64,000 nt of DNA, from positions 62,001 through 126,000 of the forward strand of contig LNEI01000025.1 of NCBI GenBank assembly GCA_001464455.1, given 5' to 3'. This DNA comes from Acidobacteria bacterium Ga0077534. GTDB taxonomy: Bacteria > Acidobacteriota > Blastocatellia > Pyrinomonadales > Pyrinomonadaceae. The notes below the pieces were generated by a model. That model saw only the letters and a list, made by a program, of their open reading frames with translations. It was not told the origin of the DNA and made no database searches. Positions 17,945-24,848 of the stretch are shown here, one piece after another; within the stretch, counting starts at the first letter, position 1; each line of letters opens with the position of its first letter. A program made the translations under genes and the position numbers.

Positions 17945-19708
17945 ATGCCCGATCTCGAACAGCCCCAAAACCCGGCCGAAGAACCCGAGTCTCTCGCCGA
18001 CCCGGCCCCCGAAGAAGCGATCGAAGCTGAAAAACCCAGGGCGAGCGTTGCCAGGTCAGCCGGCATCGTGTCGATCGCGGTGATGTTTTCGCGGGTTTTG
18101 GGATTGGTTCGCGAAACACTTTTTGCATTCTATTTCGGAGCCGGCTTTCTATACGACGCGTTTATTGTCGGGTTTCGTATTCCCAATCTTCTCCGCGACC
18201 TCTTTGCTGAAGGTGCCCTGTCGAGCGCATTCGTTAAGGTTTTTACCGATTATCAGGTCAAGAACGACGAAAAAGAGGCATGGCGGCTCGCGAGTTTGAT
18301 CTTTAACGGCCTTGCCGTCGTGCTCAGCGTCATCTGCATCGCTGGAATTTTTCTTTCGCCGCTTTTCGTTAAGCTGATCACGTATAACTATTTAGGCGAC
18401 CCGGACCACTATTATCCGCCCGAGAAAGCTGCACTCGCGACGCTGCTGATGCAGATAATGTTCCCGTTCATTCTGCTAGTCGCTCTTGCGGCTTTGGCGA
18501 TGGGGGTTCTGAATACGAAAGGGCGATTCGGGATCCCTGCGTCGGCATCGACGGCATTTAACATCGTGTCGATCGTCGTTGGCCTCGCGATGGCATACTG
18601 GCTTGCGGGCGGGCCTTGGGAAAAAGCCGTCGACAAGATCGCGGTGCCATCCGACGCGTCCCAGTGGGCGGTCATCGGCATGTCGATCGGTACACTTCTG
18701 GGCGGAGCTGCGCAATTGCTGATCCAGGTGCCTTCGTTGTTTAAGGTCGGATTTCGTTTCTCGTTTAAGCTTAGTTTTCGTGACGAAGGGGTGCAGCGTG
18801 TCATGCGGTTGATGGGGCCGGCGATCGTCGGAACAGGGGCGATCCAGATCAAGGTTTTGGTCGACACGGTCGTCGCATCGGGTATAGACGGCGGTGCGTC
18901 CTGGCTTAATTATGCATTTCGTCTGATGCAATTCCCTATCGGCGTCTTTGGCGTGGCGATCGGTACCGCGGCGATACCGACTTTGTCGCGGCTCGCATCT
19001 GAAGGAAAGCTCGACAAATTTCGCAACACGCTATCGGACGCGACAAAGCTTGTCCTGTTGCTCGCCATTCCGTCAGCCTGCGGCCTGATCGCTCTCGGAA
19101 CGCCGATAGTCAGCCTCGTGTACGAACGGGGACAGTTCGATGCGTTTGACACAAATATGACGGCTTGGGCTTTGACGGCATATTCCGTGGGACTCGCTGC
19201 GTACGCCACGATAAAGGTTATTTCGCCCGCTTTCTTCGCTCTCGACGACGCCAAGACACCTATGTACATCAGCGTGGCGTCGATCCTCGTCCACGTTCCA
19301 ACTAGTTTTGGAATGATGATGCTTTTATCGAACGTCGGCGTTTCGCCCGAACGCCCGAACGGCTACGGCCACATCGGCGTCGCCCTCGCGACGTCGGTCG
19401 TTGCGACGGTCAACTTGCTCGTCCTTTCTTACTTCATGCGTCGAAAGATCGAACGGCTGAACGGACGCGAGATCATGGCATCGTTCATCCGGATCGTTAT
19501 TGCGTCGGCAGTAATGTCGGCCGCAGCCTATGCGACCTATCGGTATGTAACGCAGATCTTTGCGGAAAAAACGCTCGTGGTTCAAATGTTCGACGCGTTT
19601 ATCCCGATGGCCATTGCGGGACTCGTTTTCCTCATCGCAGCGAAATTGCTGAGGATAGATGAGCTTGAAAAGCTTTGGAACTCGCTTCGAAGAAAGCTAT
19701 CACGGTAA
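17945..19708 (+). CDS. murJ: Lipid II flippase MurJ
   Basis: Polytopic inner-membrane MVF/MATE-type protein (587 aa) that moves lipid II across the membrane for peptidoglycan synthesis. After a roughly 30-residue acidic, Pro/Glu-rich N-terminal extension comes the conserved start SRVLGLVRETLFAFYFGAG, then YDAFIVGFRIPNLLRDLFAEG and AFVKVFTDY, followed by about 14 hydrophobic segments. FRLMQFPIGVFGVAIGTA and ERGQFDA are further family signatures. The extended N-terminus is unusual but does not disturb the core. It lies just downstream of dacB, another cell-wall gene, but behind a terminator. Confidence 0.95.
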   Translation: MPDLEQPQNPAEEPESLADPAPEEAIEAEKPRASVARSAGIVSIAVMFSRVLGLVRETLFAFYFGAGFLYDAFIVGFRIPNLLRDLFAEGALSSAFVKVFTDYQVKNDEKEAWRLASLIFNGLAVVLSVICIAGIFLSPLFVKLITYNYLGDPDHYYPPEKAALATLLMQIMFPFILLVALAALAMGVLNTKGRFGIPASASTAFNIVSIVVGLAMAYWLAGGPWEKAVDKIAVPSDASQWAVIGMSIGTLLGGAAQLLIQVPSLFKVGFRFSFKLSFRDEGVQRVMRLMGPAIVGTGAIQIKVLVDTVVASGIDGGASWLNYAFRLMQFPIGVFGVAIGTAAIPTLSRLASEGKLDKFRNTLSDATKLVLLLAIPSACGLIALGTPIVSLVYERGQFDAFDTNMTAWALTAYSVGLAAYATIKVISPAFFALDDAKTPMYISVASILVHVPTSFGMMMLLSNVGVSPERPNGYGHIGVALATSVVATVNLLVLSYFMRRKIERLNGREIMASFIRIVIASAVMSAAAYATYRYVTQIFAEKTLVVQMFDAFIPMAIAGLVFLIAAKLLRIDELEKLWNSLRRKLSR

Positions 19709-19749
19709 AAGATCTCAAAGAATCGCGAAAATATGATAATTTTGGATTT

Positions 19750-19992
19750 ATGGAAAATGAGGATCTTCTAAAGCGCATAACGATGAATCCGGACATCTGC
19801 TTCGGTAAGCCAACGATCCGAAACATGCGGTATCCGGTCGAGTTGATTCTTGACCTTCTGAGTGGCGGAATGACGAATGAGGAAATTCTGGCCGACTATC
19901 CGGACCTCGAAGAAAAGGATATCTTCGCGGCCCTCGACTTTGCTGCTCGTCTTATGCGAGTTAACAGCGTATCGAGGGTGCTGGCAGCATAA
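19750..19992 (+). CDS. DUF433 antitoxin-like protein
   Basis: An 80-aa protein with the DUF433 signature: ITMNPDICFGKPTIRNMRYPVELILDLLSGGMTNEEILADYPDLEEKDIFAALDFA, a winged-helix-like fold often paired with DUF5615 proteins. The ATG at 19750 is chosen because upstream in-frame codons lie inside the murJ 3' end and do not match the family. The stop TAA overlaps the ATG of the next gene by one base, the usual arrangement of a toxin-antitoxin pair. DNA binding and autoregulation are inferred from the family. Confidence 0.87.
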   Translation: MENEDLLKRITMNPDICFGKPTIRNMRYPVELILDLLSGGMTNEEILADYPDLEEKDIFAALDFAARLMRVNSVSRVLAA

Positions 19993-20351
19993 TGAAGTTC
20001 ATCGTTGACGCACAGCTTCCTCAGCGTTTGAGCAAATGGCTAAACGAAAATGGTCATGATTCGGTCCACACGCTCGAACTACCTCAGAAAAACAGGACTG
20101 GCGATCTAGAGATAGCCAAGCTAGCCGACCGGCAGGGACGAATTGTAATCAGCAAAGACGGCGATTTTAAGGAGCTAAAATTGCTGCAGCAAAAACCAAA
20201 GAAGTTGCTTGTGGTCAGCACGGGAAATCTTACAAATACGCCTCTGCTTGAGCTTTTTGAAAGCAATCTTGGGGTGATCGAGAAGCTATTCGAGTCATTT
20301 AATGTCGTTGAATTGAATCGGACTATGGTTGTCGGGGGAAACCTGGAATAG
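19992..20351 (+). CDS. DUF5615 PIN-like protein, probable toxin partner
   Basis: A 119-aa protein starting MKFIVDAQLPQRLSKWL, with the acidic D6 and later VISKDGDFKEL and LLVVSTGNLTN segments. This is the DUF5615 (PIN-like, Mut7-C-like) pattern, in which conserved aspartates could form a nuclease site. It is translationally coupled to the DUF433 gene, so a VapBC-like toxin-antitoxin module is the best reading. Toxicity has not been shown for this pair. Confidence 0.85.
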   Translation: MKFIVDAQLPQRLSKWLNENGHDSVHTLELPQKNRTGDLEIAKLADRQGRIVISKDGDFKELKLLQQKPKKLLVVSTGNLTNTPLLELFESNLGVIEKLFESFNVVELNRTMVVGGNLE

Positions 20352-20363
20352 GCGGGCAGCAAA

Positions 20364-20867
20364 TTGATTGGAAATTTCAAGAGTATTCTTCCATCCATCC
20401 ATGAGTCGGCTTTTGTCGCTGATAATGTCGTAATTATCGGCGATGTCGAGATCGGAGAAGATGCCAGCATTTGGTTCGGGTCGATACTGCGAGGGGATGT
20501 TAACTATATTCGCATAGGGGCTCGGACGAACATACAGGACCAAACTATCATCCATGTTAGTTCCCAAGGTTTGCCTACGATAGTCGAGGAAAACGTGACC
20601 GTCGGGCATCGAGTCACGCTGCATGCGTGTCATGTCGAAAGCGGCTGTCTGATAGGCATCGGTTCGATCATCATGGATGGTGCGCGGATCGGCCGGGATT
20701 CGATCGTCGGTGCGGGCACGCTCGTCACGCCCGGAACTCAGATCCCGCCGCGATCACTTGTCATCGGTTCGCCCGGCCGGGTCAAACGCGAGGTAACTGA
20801 CGCTGAACTCGCCGATCTGGAAAGGTCATGGCGGCGTTATGTCGAGCTAAAGGATCATTATAGTTAG
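20364..20867 (+). CDS. Gamma-class carbonic anhydrase-like left-handed beta-helix protein
   Basis: A 167-aa hexapeptide-repeat trimeric enzyme of the gamma-CA/YrdA/PaaY group. Zinc ligand candidates are the histidines in QTIIHVSS, TVGHRVTLHACHV. RGDVNYIRIGARTNIQD is the conserved trimer/active-site motif. The start codon is TTG at 20364, supported because residues 1-12 align with the family N-terminus and no ATG is in frame nearby. Its stop codon TAG forms the first bases of the palindrome at 20865. The physiological substrate in these homologues is uncertain. Confidence 0.9.
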   Translation: MIGNFKSILPSIHESAFVADNVVIIGDVEIGEDASIWFGSILRGDVNYIRIGARTNIQDQTIIHVSSQGLPTIVEENVTVGHRVTLHACHVESGCLIGIGSIIMDGARIGRDSIVGAGTLVTPGTQIPPRSLVIGSPGRVKREVTDAELADLERSWRRYVELKDHYS

Positions 20868-20934
20868 CCACGAATAACACGAATGCCGCGAATAAGAATG
20901 TTTGATTCGTGCGATGCGGGTTATTTCGTGGCTA
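20865..20934. repeat. Palindromic leader repeat, copy 1 (before the HisRS-like gene)
   Basis: Arms TAGCCACGAATAACACGAAT (20865-20884) and the near-reverse complement ending ATTTCGTGGCTA (20923-20934) form a long imperfect palindrome. A second copy with the same arms lies at 21686-21744, in front of hisS. Each is followed within 13 bases by an ATG and nearly the same first codons. No Shine-Dalgarno lies between repeat and start. The unit may be a dispersed repeat, but its duplication with the gene start is clear. Confidence 0.8.
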
Positions 20935-20946
20935 GAATAGTCTCTT

Positions 20947-21678
20947 ATGGCAAGTACCAACCCCGCCCGCAGCACGAGCGATCTTCTGCCCGCCGATGTC
21001 CGCAAACTCAACTACGTCACCGGCATCGTCAGCGAAGTCTTCGAATCACAAGGGTTCGAGCCGCTTGAAAGGGCTGGGTCATTCCAGAAGGAGATCAGCG
21101 GGGATGACAAGTCAGTCGAAGCAAACATGATCCTTGCGGTAACCGGGGCTCTTGAGAAATTGGGCATCAAGAATTTCGCGGTCTATCTCAGCCATAGCGA
21201 CGTTTTGGAGTGCATTCTTGAGACGGTCCGCGTGCCGGACGGAATTCGCGCTAAAACTTTTACCGCTATCCGTGGTTTCAGCAAGTTCAATATCGAAGGC
21301 TTTGTTGGCGAAATGCAGGAGGTTGGCGTTGCTGAACACGCTTCGACCATTCTTGCCGACCTTTTCCTTAAGACCGATGAGATCCTGAATCAGGAACAGG
21401 ACGTTAATCAGACTGTCGTAAGTAATCTACTCAATATAGTCAACATCGACACCCTTTCCGAACTCGGTTCAATTCTACGGTTAACCGGACGCAAGCCGGT
21501 CTTTATTGATCCGGCCCTGCCTTGCGAATCGCCGCTTGGCCCCGGAATTGTGATCGAAGCCCGAACGTCCGGGCTGGATATTCTGGGTGAGGGCGGTTAT
21601 ATAAACAGAGCGGACGGGCAAACGGTCTTCGCGTTCTCCTTCCACATTGAGAATATCGTCGAAGTGATGGAATCGTAA
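20947..21678 (+). CDS. Truncated, catalytically dead histidyl-tRNA synthetase paralogue
   Basis: A 243-aa HisRS-like protein. Its first 41 residues align without gaps to the downstream HisS, with about 30 identities. Then about 110 residues of HisS, including motif 2, are absent. Similarity resumes near residue 52 (LEKLGIKNFAVYL, TDEILNQEQDVNQTVVSNLLNIVN) and stops after the counterpart of motif 3, so the anticodon-binding domain is missing. The histidine-A motif LARGLSYYT is replaced by LPCESPLGP, and motif 3 has lost its arginine (SFHIENIVEVM). It cannot charge tRNA by itself. HisZ is unlikely because HisZ keeps motif 2. The long intact frame despite strong divergence suggests a kept, non-catalytic role. 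Confidence 0.88.
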   Translation: MASTNPARSTSDLLPADVRKLNYVTGIVSEVFESQGFEPLERAGSFQKEISGDDKSVEANMILAVTGALEKLGIKNFAVYLSHSDVLECILETVRVPDGIRAKTFTAIRGFSKFNIEGFVGEMQEVGVAEHASTILADLFLKTDEILNQEQDVNQTVVSNLLNIVNIDTLSELGSILRLTGRKPVFIDPALPCESPLGPGIVIEARTSGLDILGEGGYINRADGQTVFAFSFHIENIVEVMES

Positions 21679-21685
21679 AAAAGAC

Positions 21686-21744
21686 TAGCCTCTAATTACA
21701 CGAATAAAAATGCTGATTCGTGCTATTCGGGTAATTCGTGGCTA
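21686..21744. repeat. Palindromic leader repeat, copy 2 (before hisS)
   Basis: Arms TAGCCTCTAATTACACGAAT (21686-21705) and ATTCGGGTAATTCGTGGCTA (21725-21744) form an imperfect palindrome that closely matches copy 1. It lies 10 bases before the hisS ATG, so the leader RNA can fold into a long hairpin next to the start codon. Confidence 0.8.
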
Positions 21745-21754
21745 AAATGTTTTT

Positions 21755-23122
21755 ATGGCAAGCACAAACCCAGCCCGCGGAATGCGCGACTTCCTTCCCG
21801 CTGATGTCCGAAAACGCAACTACGTCATCGGCATAATCAAGGAAGTCTATGAATGCTACGGCTTTGAACCGCTCGAAACCCCCGCCGTCGAAAATCTCGA
21901 AACACTCACCGGGAAGTACGGTGAAGAGGGGAATCAGTTAATTTTCAAAATTCTCAAACGCGGGGAGAAGCTGAGACAAGAAACAGGTGACGGGAGACAG
22001 GAGTTGAAGGAATCAGATCTTTCAGACCTTGCGCTTCGTTACGACCTAACTGTGCCGCTTGCCCGTGTTGTCGCAAATAATAAGAACGAACTGCCGAGAT
22101 TCTTCAAACGCTATCAGATACAGCCTGTTTGGCGGGCTGACCGTCCGGCTCGTGGGCGGTTCCGCGAGTTTTATCAGTGCGACGTTGACGCGATCGGGTC
22201 GAGTTCGATGGTGGTTGAAGGTGAACTTATCTCTGCGGTTAGCGAGATTTTAAAACGGTTAGGATTTCAAGATTTTACCATTCGCTTGAACGACCGCCGA
22301 GTTTTGACGGACATTCTCAACACCGCTGGGGTTTCCGTCGACGTTCACTCCGACGCTCTTATTGCGATCGACAAATTGGACAAGATCGGTTCCGAGGGTG
22401 TTTCCTCCGAACTTCTTTCCCGGGGCATTTCTGAGGAATCAGCTGCGATGCTGATGCAGATCTTTGCTAAAACGCAGGAGATACTGAACCAAGAGAAAGA
22501 GATCAACCGTGCGATAGTCGCCAACCTGATCAACATCGTGAGCAACGAAACGCTGACCGAGCTCGGCCATGTCCTCAAATTTGCCGCGAATGCCCCGATC
22601 CTCATCGACCCGAGTCTTGCCCGCGGACTTTCATATTATACCGGAGCGATAATGGAGATCAGCGTTCCGGATCTTGCCGGCAGTCTCGGTGGCGGTGGGC
22701 GTTATGACGGGTTGATCGGGATGTTTGGTAAGGAGCAAATACCGGCGTGCGGGTTTAGTCTGGGGCTCGAGCGAATTTTGGTCGTGATGGACGAGCGGGG
22801 AATGTTCCCGCCTGAGATCGCCGAATCGGCCCCGGCGGATGTGCTGGTAACTATTTGGAGTGAAGAAACCGTCGCCCAGTCAATGAAACTTGCCAGCGAA
22901 CTTCGATCAAATGGCCTCCGAGTCACGCTCTATCCCGAACCCGATAAACTTGGCAAGCAGATAAAATACGCCGACTCGATCAAGGTGCCATACGTGTGCG
23001 TGCTCGGTGACAGTGAGATCGCCGAAGGAAAAGTGACAGTTAAAAACCTGAGATCAGGCGTGCAGGAAACCGTCACCTCCGCTGATGCGGCGGAATTGAT
23101 CGATCGAGCCCGGGCTGTCTGA
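21755..23122 (+). CDS. hisS: Histidyl-tRNA synthetase
   Basis: Class II synthetase (455 aa) that charges tRNA-His. Motif 1 is in the N-terminal RDFLPADVRKRNYVI segment, motif 2 is RFREFYQCDVD at about 135-145, the histidine-A motif is LARGLSYYT at about 289, and motif 3 is GFSLGLERIL at about 333. The C-terminal 100 residues form the anticodon-binding domain (ADVLVTIWSE onward). Near residues 74-83 there is a repetitive RQETGDGRQE stretch that looks like a short repeat-derived insertion. The upstream paralogue shares its start and leader. No good Shine-Dalgarno precedes the ATG. Confidence 0.97.
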   Translation: MASTNPARGMRDFLPADVRKRNYVIGIIKEVYECYGFEPLETPAVENLETLTGKYGEEGNQLIFKILKRGEKLRQETGDGRQELKESDLSDLALRYDLTVPLARVVANNKNELPRFFKRYQIQPVWRADRPARGRFREFYQCDVDAIGSSSMVVEGELISAVSEILKRLGFQDFTIRLNDRRVLTDILNTAGVSVDVHSDALIAIDKLDKIGSEGVSSELLSRGISEESAAMLMQIFAKTQEILNQEKEINRAIVANLINIVSNETLTELGHVLKFAANAPILIDPSLARGLSYYTGAIMEISVPDLAGSLGGGGRYDGLIGMFGKEQIPACGFSLGLERILVVMDERGMFPPEIAESAPADVLVTIWSEETVAQSMKLASELRSNGLRVTLYPEPDKLGKQIKYADSIKVPYVCVLGDSEIAEGKVTVKNLRSGVQETVTSADAAELIDRARAV

Positions 23123-23135
23123 AGGAGAAGGCGAT

Positions 23136-23750
23136 TTGATAGAACTGATCACACTCGACGCGACGCTTAAGCTCGACATAAAGTACGCGACTGCTGATAA
23201 CTTTATCGGTCGTCAGGTCTACTCGGAAGCCCGAGCGTTTCTGCAGCCAGCCGCGGCCGAGGGCGTGGTTCGCGTTCATGATCTACTTGGCGAAAAAGGG
23301 CTCGGCCTCGTGATCTACGATGGATATCGTCCGTGGTCGATCACGAAGCTTTTCTGGGAAACAGTAAGTGAGGAAGACAGGATTTTTGTAGCCGATCCGG
23401 CCGAGGGCTCAAAGCATAATCGCGGATGTGCCGTCGACCTCGGCATCTATGACCTCAGTACCGGCGAAGCCGTCCCGATGCCGTCGGAGTTTGACGAGTT
23501 TACCGAACGAGCTTCGCCTGTTTACACTGGGGGCACGCTCAAAGAACGACAAAATCGCGATCTTCTGCGGCAGTTGATGGAATCGAGCGGCTTTACGGTG
23601 AACGAAAACGAGTGGTGGCACTTCGACCTAACAGGCTGGGAGCAGTATCCGATCTACGACATTGCCTTTTCCGAAGTATCGACGCTAACCGAGAGTGTCA
23701 ATGCATCGCGCGGATCTGCATTGAAAGATCCGCGCGAATGCCTTGTTTAA
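23136..23750 (+). CDS. D-alanyl-D-alanine dipeptidase (VanX/DdpX type, peptidase M15D)
   Basis: A zinc dipeptidase of 204 aa. The zinc-binding motif SKHNRGCAVDL (SxHxxGxAxD) and the C-terminal EWWHFD give the catalytic site; YDGYRPW is the substrate loop arginine motif. The start codon is TTG at 23136 with GGAGA (23124-23128) upstream, 13 bases after hisS, so it probably shares the hisS transcript. There is no signal peptide, so cytoplasmic. No vanH or vanA neighbour is present, so a housekeeping role in cell-wall dipeptide recycling is more likely than vancomycin resistance. Confidence 0.92.
   Translation: MIELITLDATLKLDIKYATADNFIGRQVYSEARAFLQPAAAEGVVRVHDLLGEKGLGLVIYDGYRPWSITKLFWETVSEEDRIFVADPAEGSKHNRGCAVDLGIYDLSTGEAVPMPSEFDEFTERASPVYTGGTLKERQNRDLLRQLMESSGFTVNENEWWHFDLTGWEQYPIYDIAFSEVSTLTESVNASRGSALKDPRECLV
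23707..23736. terminator. Strong hairpin inside the 3' end of the dipeptidase gene
   Basis: A perfect 11-bp stem (CGCGCGGATCT / AGATCCGCGCG) with an 8-base loop, 12 bases before the stop and facing the convergent YceI gene. There is no long T-run, so it may be a weak bidirectional terminator or an mRNA-stabilising hairpin. Confidence 0.5.
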
Positions 23751-23754
23751 CGAT

Positions 23755-24429
23755 CTATTCGGTCTTTGGAGCGGCTGCCGCGGGGGCCGTTGGACGCGGC
23801 ATTGTTGCCTCTATCTGCAGATCGACATCGACCTCATCGGCGATCACGGCGGGTACGCCGTAGTTGATGCCGTAATCTCGACGATTTAGCTTCGTGGCAG
23901 CCGTCACGCCCATACGGGCTCCACTTCTTTCGCCAGCCGGGTTGATACCGGCGATGTTGAAGGGGAACGTTATCGATTTTGTGACGCCTTTCATGGTGAA
24001 GTCACCGGTCACCATCCATTGATTGCCTTTCATTTCGACCTTGGTGCTTTTGAAAGTCAGATCAGGGAATTTCTCCACCTCGAAAAAATCTTTCGATCGA
24101 AGGTGATTGTCGCGGCCGTCGACTCCGGTATCGATGCTCGTGATCTTGGCTGTAAATTCGACCGTCGATTTGCTCGGATCAGCTGAGTCATAGTTGATCG
24201 AACCGCTAAAATCGCGAAAATGCCCCGGAAGATAGATCAGGTTGTTGTGCTTGATCTTAAAGCCGATCGCGGTGTGAGCCTTGTCGAAAGTGTAAACACC
24301 AGACGGCCCCTTGGACGGAGCACCTGCAAATTTCTCGGCGATGGTCATGTTGACCGCACCCGCTCCGGTTTGCAGCAGTGCTGCAAAAGCAACAAAAGCG
24401 AGGGCAGTGATTACGGAAAGTCTTTTCAT
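23755..24429 (-). CDS. YceI family periplasmic lipid-binding-like protein
   Basis: A 224-aa secreted protein with a signal peptide (LLQTGAGA cleavage region) and a YceI lipocalin-like barrel. Family signatures: YTFDKAHTAIGFKIKH, FRDFSGSINYD, STVEFTAKITSIDTG, DNHLRSKDFFEVEKFP, WMVTGDFTMKGVTK and LNRRDYGINYG. YceI proteins bind isoprenoid lipids such as ubiquinone analogues, and the ligand here is not known. The start at 24429 has a GGAGAA ribosome site. An Ala/Pro-rich tail closes the protein. It is probably co-transcribed with the small exported protein upstream (35 bp). Confidence 0.92.
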   Translation of the reverse strand: MKRLSVITALAFVAFAALLQTGAGAVNMTIAEKFAGAPSKGPSGVYTFDKAHTAIGFKIKHNNLIYLPGHFRDFSGSINYDSADPSKSTVEFTAKITSIDTGVDGRDNHLRSKDFFEVEKFPDLTFKSTKVEMKGNQWMVTGDFTMKGVTKSITFPFNIAGINPAGERSGARMGVTAATKLNRRDYGINYGVPAVIADEVDVDLQIEATMPRPTAPAAAAPKTE

Positions 24430-24464
24430 TGATAATTCTCCTTGAACGATCTGTGATAGCAAAG

Positions 24465-24848
24465 TTATTTGATAGTCAGGGTTAGCGAAAATCGGGCGGT
24501 TCGGGGCGATCGGACCTGCTTTTTTCGCACGAAGAACATATAGTCGCCCGTTTCAGGTATCTCGAAAGTCAGGCTAGGTGAGCTTTCGAACTCGGTCTCG
24601 AAGTCGAATTCCTGGTTGAAGACTCGAAAGTCAAACAGGTTTCGAGTCGAGTTTTTGATCGTAACTGTCTGGCCCTTGTTCGCCAAAAACACGTACTCCA
24701 TTTCCTGTCCGTTTGAGAGCGAGCCTGAGACGGTCTTGGTTGTTCTGTTCGCAGCAAACTGAATCCGATTCGGCTCCGCCTTGCCGCCCTGAGCCGGAGC
24801 GACGCCCGAAATGAGGGTTAGAAATAGAACGATCAACAAGAGACGCAT
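24465..24848 (-). CDS. Small exported protein with pre-peptidase-like beta domain
   Basis: A 127-aa protein with a Sec signal peptide (MRLLLIVLFLTLISG to APAQG). The mature part contains GQEMEYVFLANKGQTVTI and, near the end, SLTFEIPETGDYMFFVR. This alternating pattern resembles bacterial pre-peptidase C-terminal (PPC) domains that act as small secreted beta-sandwiches; that is inference from pattern. The ATG at 24848 is used because longer upstream frames lie over the divergent promoter region. It is divergent from the DinB gene. Confidence 0.8.
   Translation of the reverse strand: MRLLLIVLFLTLISGVAPAQGGKAEPNRIQFAANRTTKTVSGSLSNGQEMEYVFLANKGQTVTIKNSTRNLFDFRVFNQEFDFETEFESSPSLTFEIPETGDYMFFVRKKQVRSPRTARFSLTLTIK

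Follow-up and report, generated by a model that had tools for sequence, protein, structure and literature searches.

What kind of gene is the 243-codon open reading frame that directly precedes hisS, and begins like it, in the 64,000-nucleotide stretch of acidobacterial DNA analyzed here (the window)? Synthetase paralogues are common and mostly uncharacterized (PMC9437257), and our literature search found no earlier description of a paralogue such as this one. Judged from its sequence, the gene looks like a small repurposed protein, not a decaying gene.

A HisRS copy without its catalytic parts

The paralogue is read from an ATG with zero internal stops, and hisS, the sole other HisRS-core homologue in this 4.2-Mb genome (G000), begins 76 bases further downstream (Table 1). 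Aligned to HisS, residues 1 to 41 are identical at 30 of 41 positions (73%). A 15-residue linker then stands where HisS has residues 42 to 153, a block of 112 residues to which motif 2, the proline of motif 1, and the histidine-binding loop region belong. Residues 57 to 191 align without gaps to HisS residues 154 to 288, with about 36% identity. In the remainder, the HisA motif LARGLSYYTG of HisS has become LPCESPLGPG and the motif-3 GLER has become HIEN, with loss of the motif-3 arginine; the anticodon domain is missing, as the ORF stops where that domain would start. The alignment thus bears out what an earlier note on this DNA had read from the letters, namely, an N-terminal match of 41 residues with about 30 identities, a gap of some 110 residues with motif 2, and loss of the HisA motif, the motif-3 arginine, and the anticodon domain.

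Table 1. Features of the hexapeptide gene-hisS region (window coordinates)
Feature	Coordinates	Strand	Remarks
Hexapeptide-repeat protein gene	20364..20867	+	Conserved upstream of hisS across the genus and of the G008 copy
Dispersed palindromic repeat copy (CACGAAT...ATTCGTG)	20869..20911	.	Between hexapeptide gene and paralogue
TAGAAT, -10-like element	20933..20938	+	14 nt before paralogue ATG
Truncated HisRS paralogue	20947..21678	+	243 codons plus stop; ORF list, HisRS homology, G008 orthologue
Residues 1-41, HisRS N-terminus with motif-1 helix	20947..21069	+	73% identity to HisS; helix 16-34 in model
Residues 42-56, linker replacing HisS 42-153	21070..21114	+	G008 linker recognizably alike
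Residues 57-191, part of core fold plus whole insertion domain	21115..21519	+	Gapless versus HisS 154-288
Residues 192-243, degenerate HisA-motif and motif-3 strands	21520..21675	+	Alignment; strands and last helix modeled
Second copy of CACGAAT...ATTCGTG repeat	21699..21722	.	Between paralogue and hisS
TAAAAT, -10-like element	21743..21748	+	12 nt before hisS ATG
hisS, intact housekeeping HisRS, 455 aa	21755..23122	+	TIGR00442 at 383.6 bits
hisS insertion domain	about 22283-22600		

The histidine- and ATP-binding residues are known from HisRS structures, and they fall in the deleted block or in the altered motifs of the paralogue. Because of this, catalysis and histidine binding are both very unlikely, and the earlier suggestion that the protein could bind histidine fares badly: its motif-2 block is deleted, and neither the HisA motif nor the motif-3 arginine is intact. 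Profile searches place the protein outside the HisRS family (TIGR00442, 28 bits against a cut-off of 286.75), with a partial match to Pfam PF13393 just under the cut-off (E=1.6e-5). With HisS relatives in the alignment, AlphaFold2 predicts a continuous fold (pLDDT 83, pTM 0.80), whose best structural match is the HisRS/Gcn2 HisRS-like fold (Z about 20). The model for the two known paralogues alone is poor (pLDDT 41), so the confident fold rests on the HisS alignment; a HisRS-like class II synthetase core is predicted only with HisS rows included, and we infer the fold of the paralogue from homology.

A second copy with the same deletion, under constraint

The search for orthologues in related genomes that the earlier note had proposed found one, in G008 (Chloracidobacterium sp. 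isolate GL140_2_metabinner_68, a MAG; contig JANYIL010000277.1), another species in the GTDB genus of G000. The G008 protein is 61% identical to the paralogue over 109 residues, up to the contig end, has the same deletion junction and a recognizably homologous linker (RAGSFQKEISGDDKS in the window, GAETFHKQIDDDDKS in G008), and is encoded behind the same murJ and hexapeptide genes. It is the only orthologue among 41 genus genomes, 162 class genomes, and a collection of 84,980 species genomes scanned by pattern, which makes 2 carriers in the 41 genus genomes. A contig search with the single paralogue protein gave zero matches; with a two-row alignment it returned only the G008 contig plus ordinary hisS-like matches from distant organisms.

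Since both copies share the deletion, their divergence postdates it. Over the aligned codons, pairwise dN/dS is 0.22 (dS 1.19, dN 0.27; LRT 28.2 against 1), and residues 42 to 109 alone give 0.19 (LRT 19.2 against 1). The likelihood profile places the dS of the two copies between about 0.75 and 2.1; with dS at about 1.2, the paralogue appears to be old. In neutral simulations at d=0.6 per site, 13 of 4,000 sequences kept the 243 codons open, so the open frame that the earlier note had remarked on despite the divergence is intact beyond chance. Constraint is moderate and weaker than on the neighboring genes, because the paralogue's dN/dS lies above their usable estimates (0.04 to 0.09). Both copies have in common eleven residues that no genus HisS shows at the same columns, a pattern suggestive of an altered role. 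Beyond the G008 fragment (residues 110 to 191), change at HisS-invariant sites amounts to 35, 21, and 71% at codon positions 1, 2, and 3 (p=0.02, few sites). The comparison thus shows common descent of the deletion, an open frame, and purifying selection between the two species.

Would a decaying duplicate, still open by chance, look like this? The catalytic motifs are gone, the gene is confined to 2 of the 41 genus genomes and cleanly absent from close relatives, and it evolves faster than its neighbors, all of which would fit decay. Nevertheless, a pseudogene is unlikely and largely refuted by the significantly low dN/dS after the deletion, by frames open in both copies despite that much synonymous change, and by their shared copy-specific residues; the paralogue has neither frame damage nor a dN/dS near 1. 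The latter value, together with the absence of any orthologue, had been named beforehand as the outcome that would point to a decaying duplicate, and the opposite was obtained. Therefore, the earlier claim that this is no plain pseudogene holds, backed by an orthologue with the same deletion.

Neighborhood and history of the locus

Both copies may be transcribed without a leader. A TAAAAT lies 12 nt before the start of the G008 orthologue, and a TANNNT at -16 to -10 precedes hisS in 23 of 32 relatives versus 5% of all ATGs in the window. A TANNNT 12 to 14 nt before the ATG, as in both copies and most hisS genes of the genus, has the spacing predicted for a leaderless promoter, and these elements suggest that leaderless transcription is common in the genus. 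On such evidence, from sequence or model, the paralogue would be expressed. An Rfam search of positions 19500 to 24500 gave zero matches at E<=1.

The palindromic repeat that flanks the paralogue on both sides recurs between genes some 20 times across the genome, and one side of it often has CACGAAT repeated in tandem as two or three units. Similar DNA upstream of the paralogue and of hisS, considered as a trace of gene conversion, belongs to this dispersed family. Conversion of the paralogue N-terminus from hisS is likewise unneeded: the N-terminus and the insertion domain differ from HisS by a similar multiple of the HisS-HisS distance. A toxin-antitoxin-like, PIN-related DUF433/DUF5615 pair (19675 to 20351) lies between murJ and the hexapeptide gene and is present in some genus genomes and absent in others. 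At the other loci that we read, the hexapeptide gene is followed immediately by hisS, except in five wider gaps where unrelated genes come first. These wider gaps (G025, G012, G005, G001, and G036) were considered as possible sites of diverged paralogues and rejected on their gene content.

The paralogue shares its type of insertion domain with the HisS proteins of G000, G025, G033, G061, G032, and G018. In a tree of the middle region, the two paralogues pair, and the next branch out, which is weakly supported, joins them to HisS sequences of the window's type. The rpoB tree puts G000 and G008, not as sisters, in one eight-genome clade, together with G004, G025, G032, G033, G034, and G061; therefore, the paralogue is either ancestral to this clade and was lost several times or has moved from one member to another. 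Its dS is lower than that of the flanking genes, which may mildly favor exchange. The six other genomes of the clade are without it, so the gene is dispensable or mobile.

A possible partner of HisS

We tentatively favor, as a possibility still short of even chances, that the paralogue is a domesticated noncatalytic HisRS offshoot, kept as a protein that acts by binding and tunes HisS. A tandem hisS copy with an insertion domain of the window's type would have arisen, lost its anticodon domain as well as the 112 residues that comprised motif 2 and the histidine pocket, and then been retained as a truncated protein. Its product would be a compact domain, incapable of histidine activation, in which the insertion domain is combined with the motif-1 helix and some of the class II sheet. 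This compact domain might tune HisS by binding to it with the motif-1/core dimer face that has been kept, or by using the insertion domain to bind tRNA-His. In HisRS, the motif-1 helix, the core sheet, and the insertion domain have roles in dimerization and tRNA contact, and binding to HisS or tRNA-His is therefore the favored mode. The paralogue would thus act by binding to a protein or to tRNA, with HisS itself as the most plausible target, a mechanism that we infer from the parts retained.

Insertion-domain swapping in the genus

Close relatives in this genus have exchanged the HisRS insertion domain as a module, as at loci L077/L072 (G003/G017), L088 (G034), and L087/L084 (G011/G014). Swapped loci lose DNA similarity sharply over the domain, with 82 to 92% identity on both sides. 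Between G003 and G017, DNA identity is 91.5% over the 5.6 kb up to the insertion domain, similarity is absent within it, and identity is 82% beyond. Other genus pairs are 15 to 32% identical in the insertion domain versus 84 to 100% in the N-terminus and motif-2 block.

The paralogue might instead be a decoy or immunity protein that shows the HisRS insertion domain to an attacker of it and so spares HisS. Wholesale replacement of this domain in HisS of close relatives is what attack would be expected to produce; the paralogue retains the domain after losing the active site, and in G008 the paralogue has the window's type of insertion domain whereas HisS has a different one. We nevertheless regard such a protein as quite improbable: there is no known attacker, the connection is circumstantial, and the paralogue is missing from most of the genomes in which the domain has been swapped. 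Somewhat more doubtful still is the combined proposition that the paralogue carries the insertion domain as a decoy, immunity factor, or HisS partner specifically in a genus that swaps this domain as a module.

It is also quite doubtful that the G008 fragment and a truncated hisS contig are the two ends of one gene, which would leave G008 without an independent truncated paralogue. Contig C94 ends at about HisS-equivalent residue 206 and contig C147 starts at about 216, as such a gene would require. However, the C94 gene lacks motif 2, so that with a single joined gene G008 would have no active HisRS, and the ends fit equally well if a contig that carried the paralogue's end and the beginning of hisS is missing; the shared deletion and the dN/dS are independent of this question.

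A HisZ-like regulatory subunit of ATP phosphoribosyltransferase (HisG) is highly improbable, although the best NCBIfam match of the paralogue is hisZ (TIGR00443, E=1.9e-9, partial, 37 bits against a cut-off of 271.65) and, among bacterial HisRS paralogues, the one known to lack synthetase activity is HisZ (PMC9437257): the match is neither full length nor above the cut-off, hisG lies on a different contig, and the paralogue lacks the motif-2 block and derives from the genus's own HisS. The HisZ reading is further disfavored because HisG in this genome is not the short form with which HisZ would co-occur and carries its own C-terminal regulatory domain (HisG_C, PF08029, E=1.3e-24). Long-form HisG is as a rule HisZ independent. 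Among the relatives searched, hisG is of the long form in G000, G008, G033, and G061, gave a partial match in G032, and was not found in G034, G025, and G004, which may reflect histidine auxotrophy or missing contigs.

Comparison with known systems and significance

The proposed HisS-binding offshoot can be set against four relatives. The adjacent HisS represents its direct ancestor, with the same insertion-domain type and the same predicted fold. Unlike HisS, the paralogue would not be expected to activate histidine, as its motif-2 block, HisA motif, motif-3 arginine, and anticodon domain are lost. With HisZ it shares being a noncatalytic bacterial HisRS paralogue without an anticodon domain. 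HisZ, however, forms an old family of its own, in which the motif-2 region is retained and the partner is short HisG, whereas the paralogue branched off within the genus and its genome encodes long HisG. The HisRS-like domain of Gcn2 is likewise a degenerate HisRS that has lost catalysis, and is close in structural score, yet it has retained the complete core and, as part of a kinase, detects uncharged tRNA, unlike this free-standing 243-residue protein without motif 2. The earlier note was therefore correct to distinguish the paralogue from HisZ and Gcn2-type paralogues. Finally, recruited synthetase paralogues followed the same path of duplication, loss of aminoacylation, and retention of the copy, but those covered in PMC9437257 keep the catalytic domain, whereas here a large block of it is deleted.

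Much of the catalytic core has been lost from a protein that is still constrained, so the paralogue isolates what the motif-1 helix and the insertion domain can do without catalysis. If the decoy or immunity reading (or that of a HisS partner) were true, the paralogue would be part of a conflict over an essential synthetase. Insertion-domain swapping may outweigh the paralogue itself in importance, and in a genus that swaps this domain there is a concrete and testable motive for asking what purpose the domain serves in HisRS.
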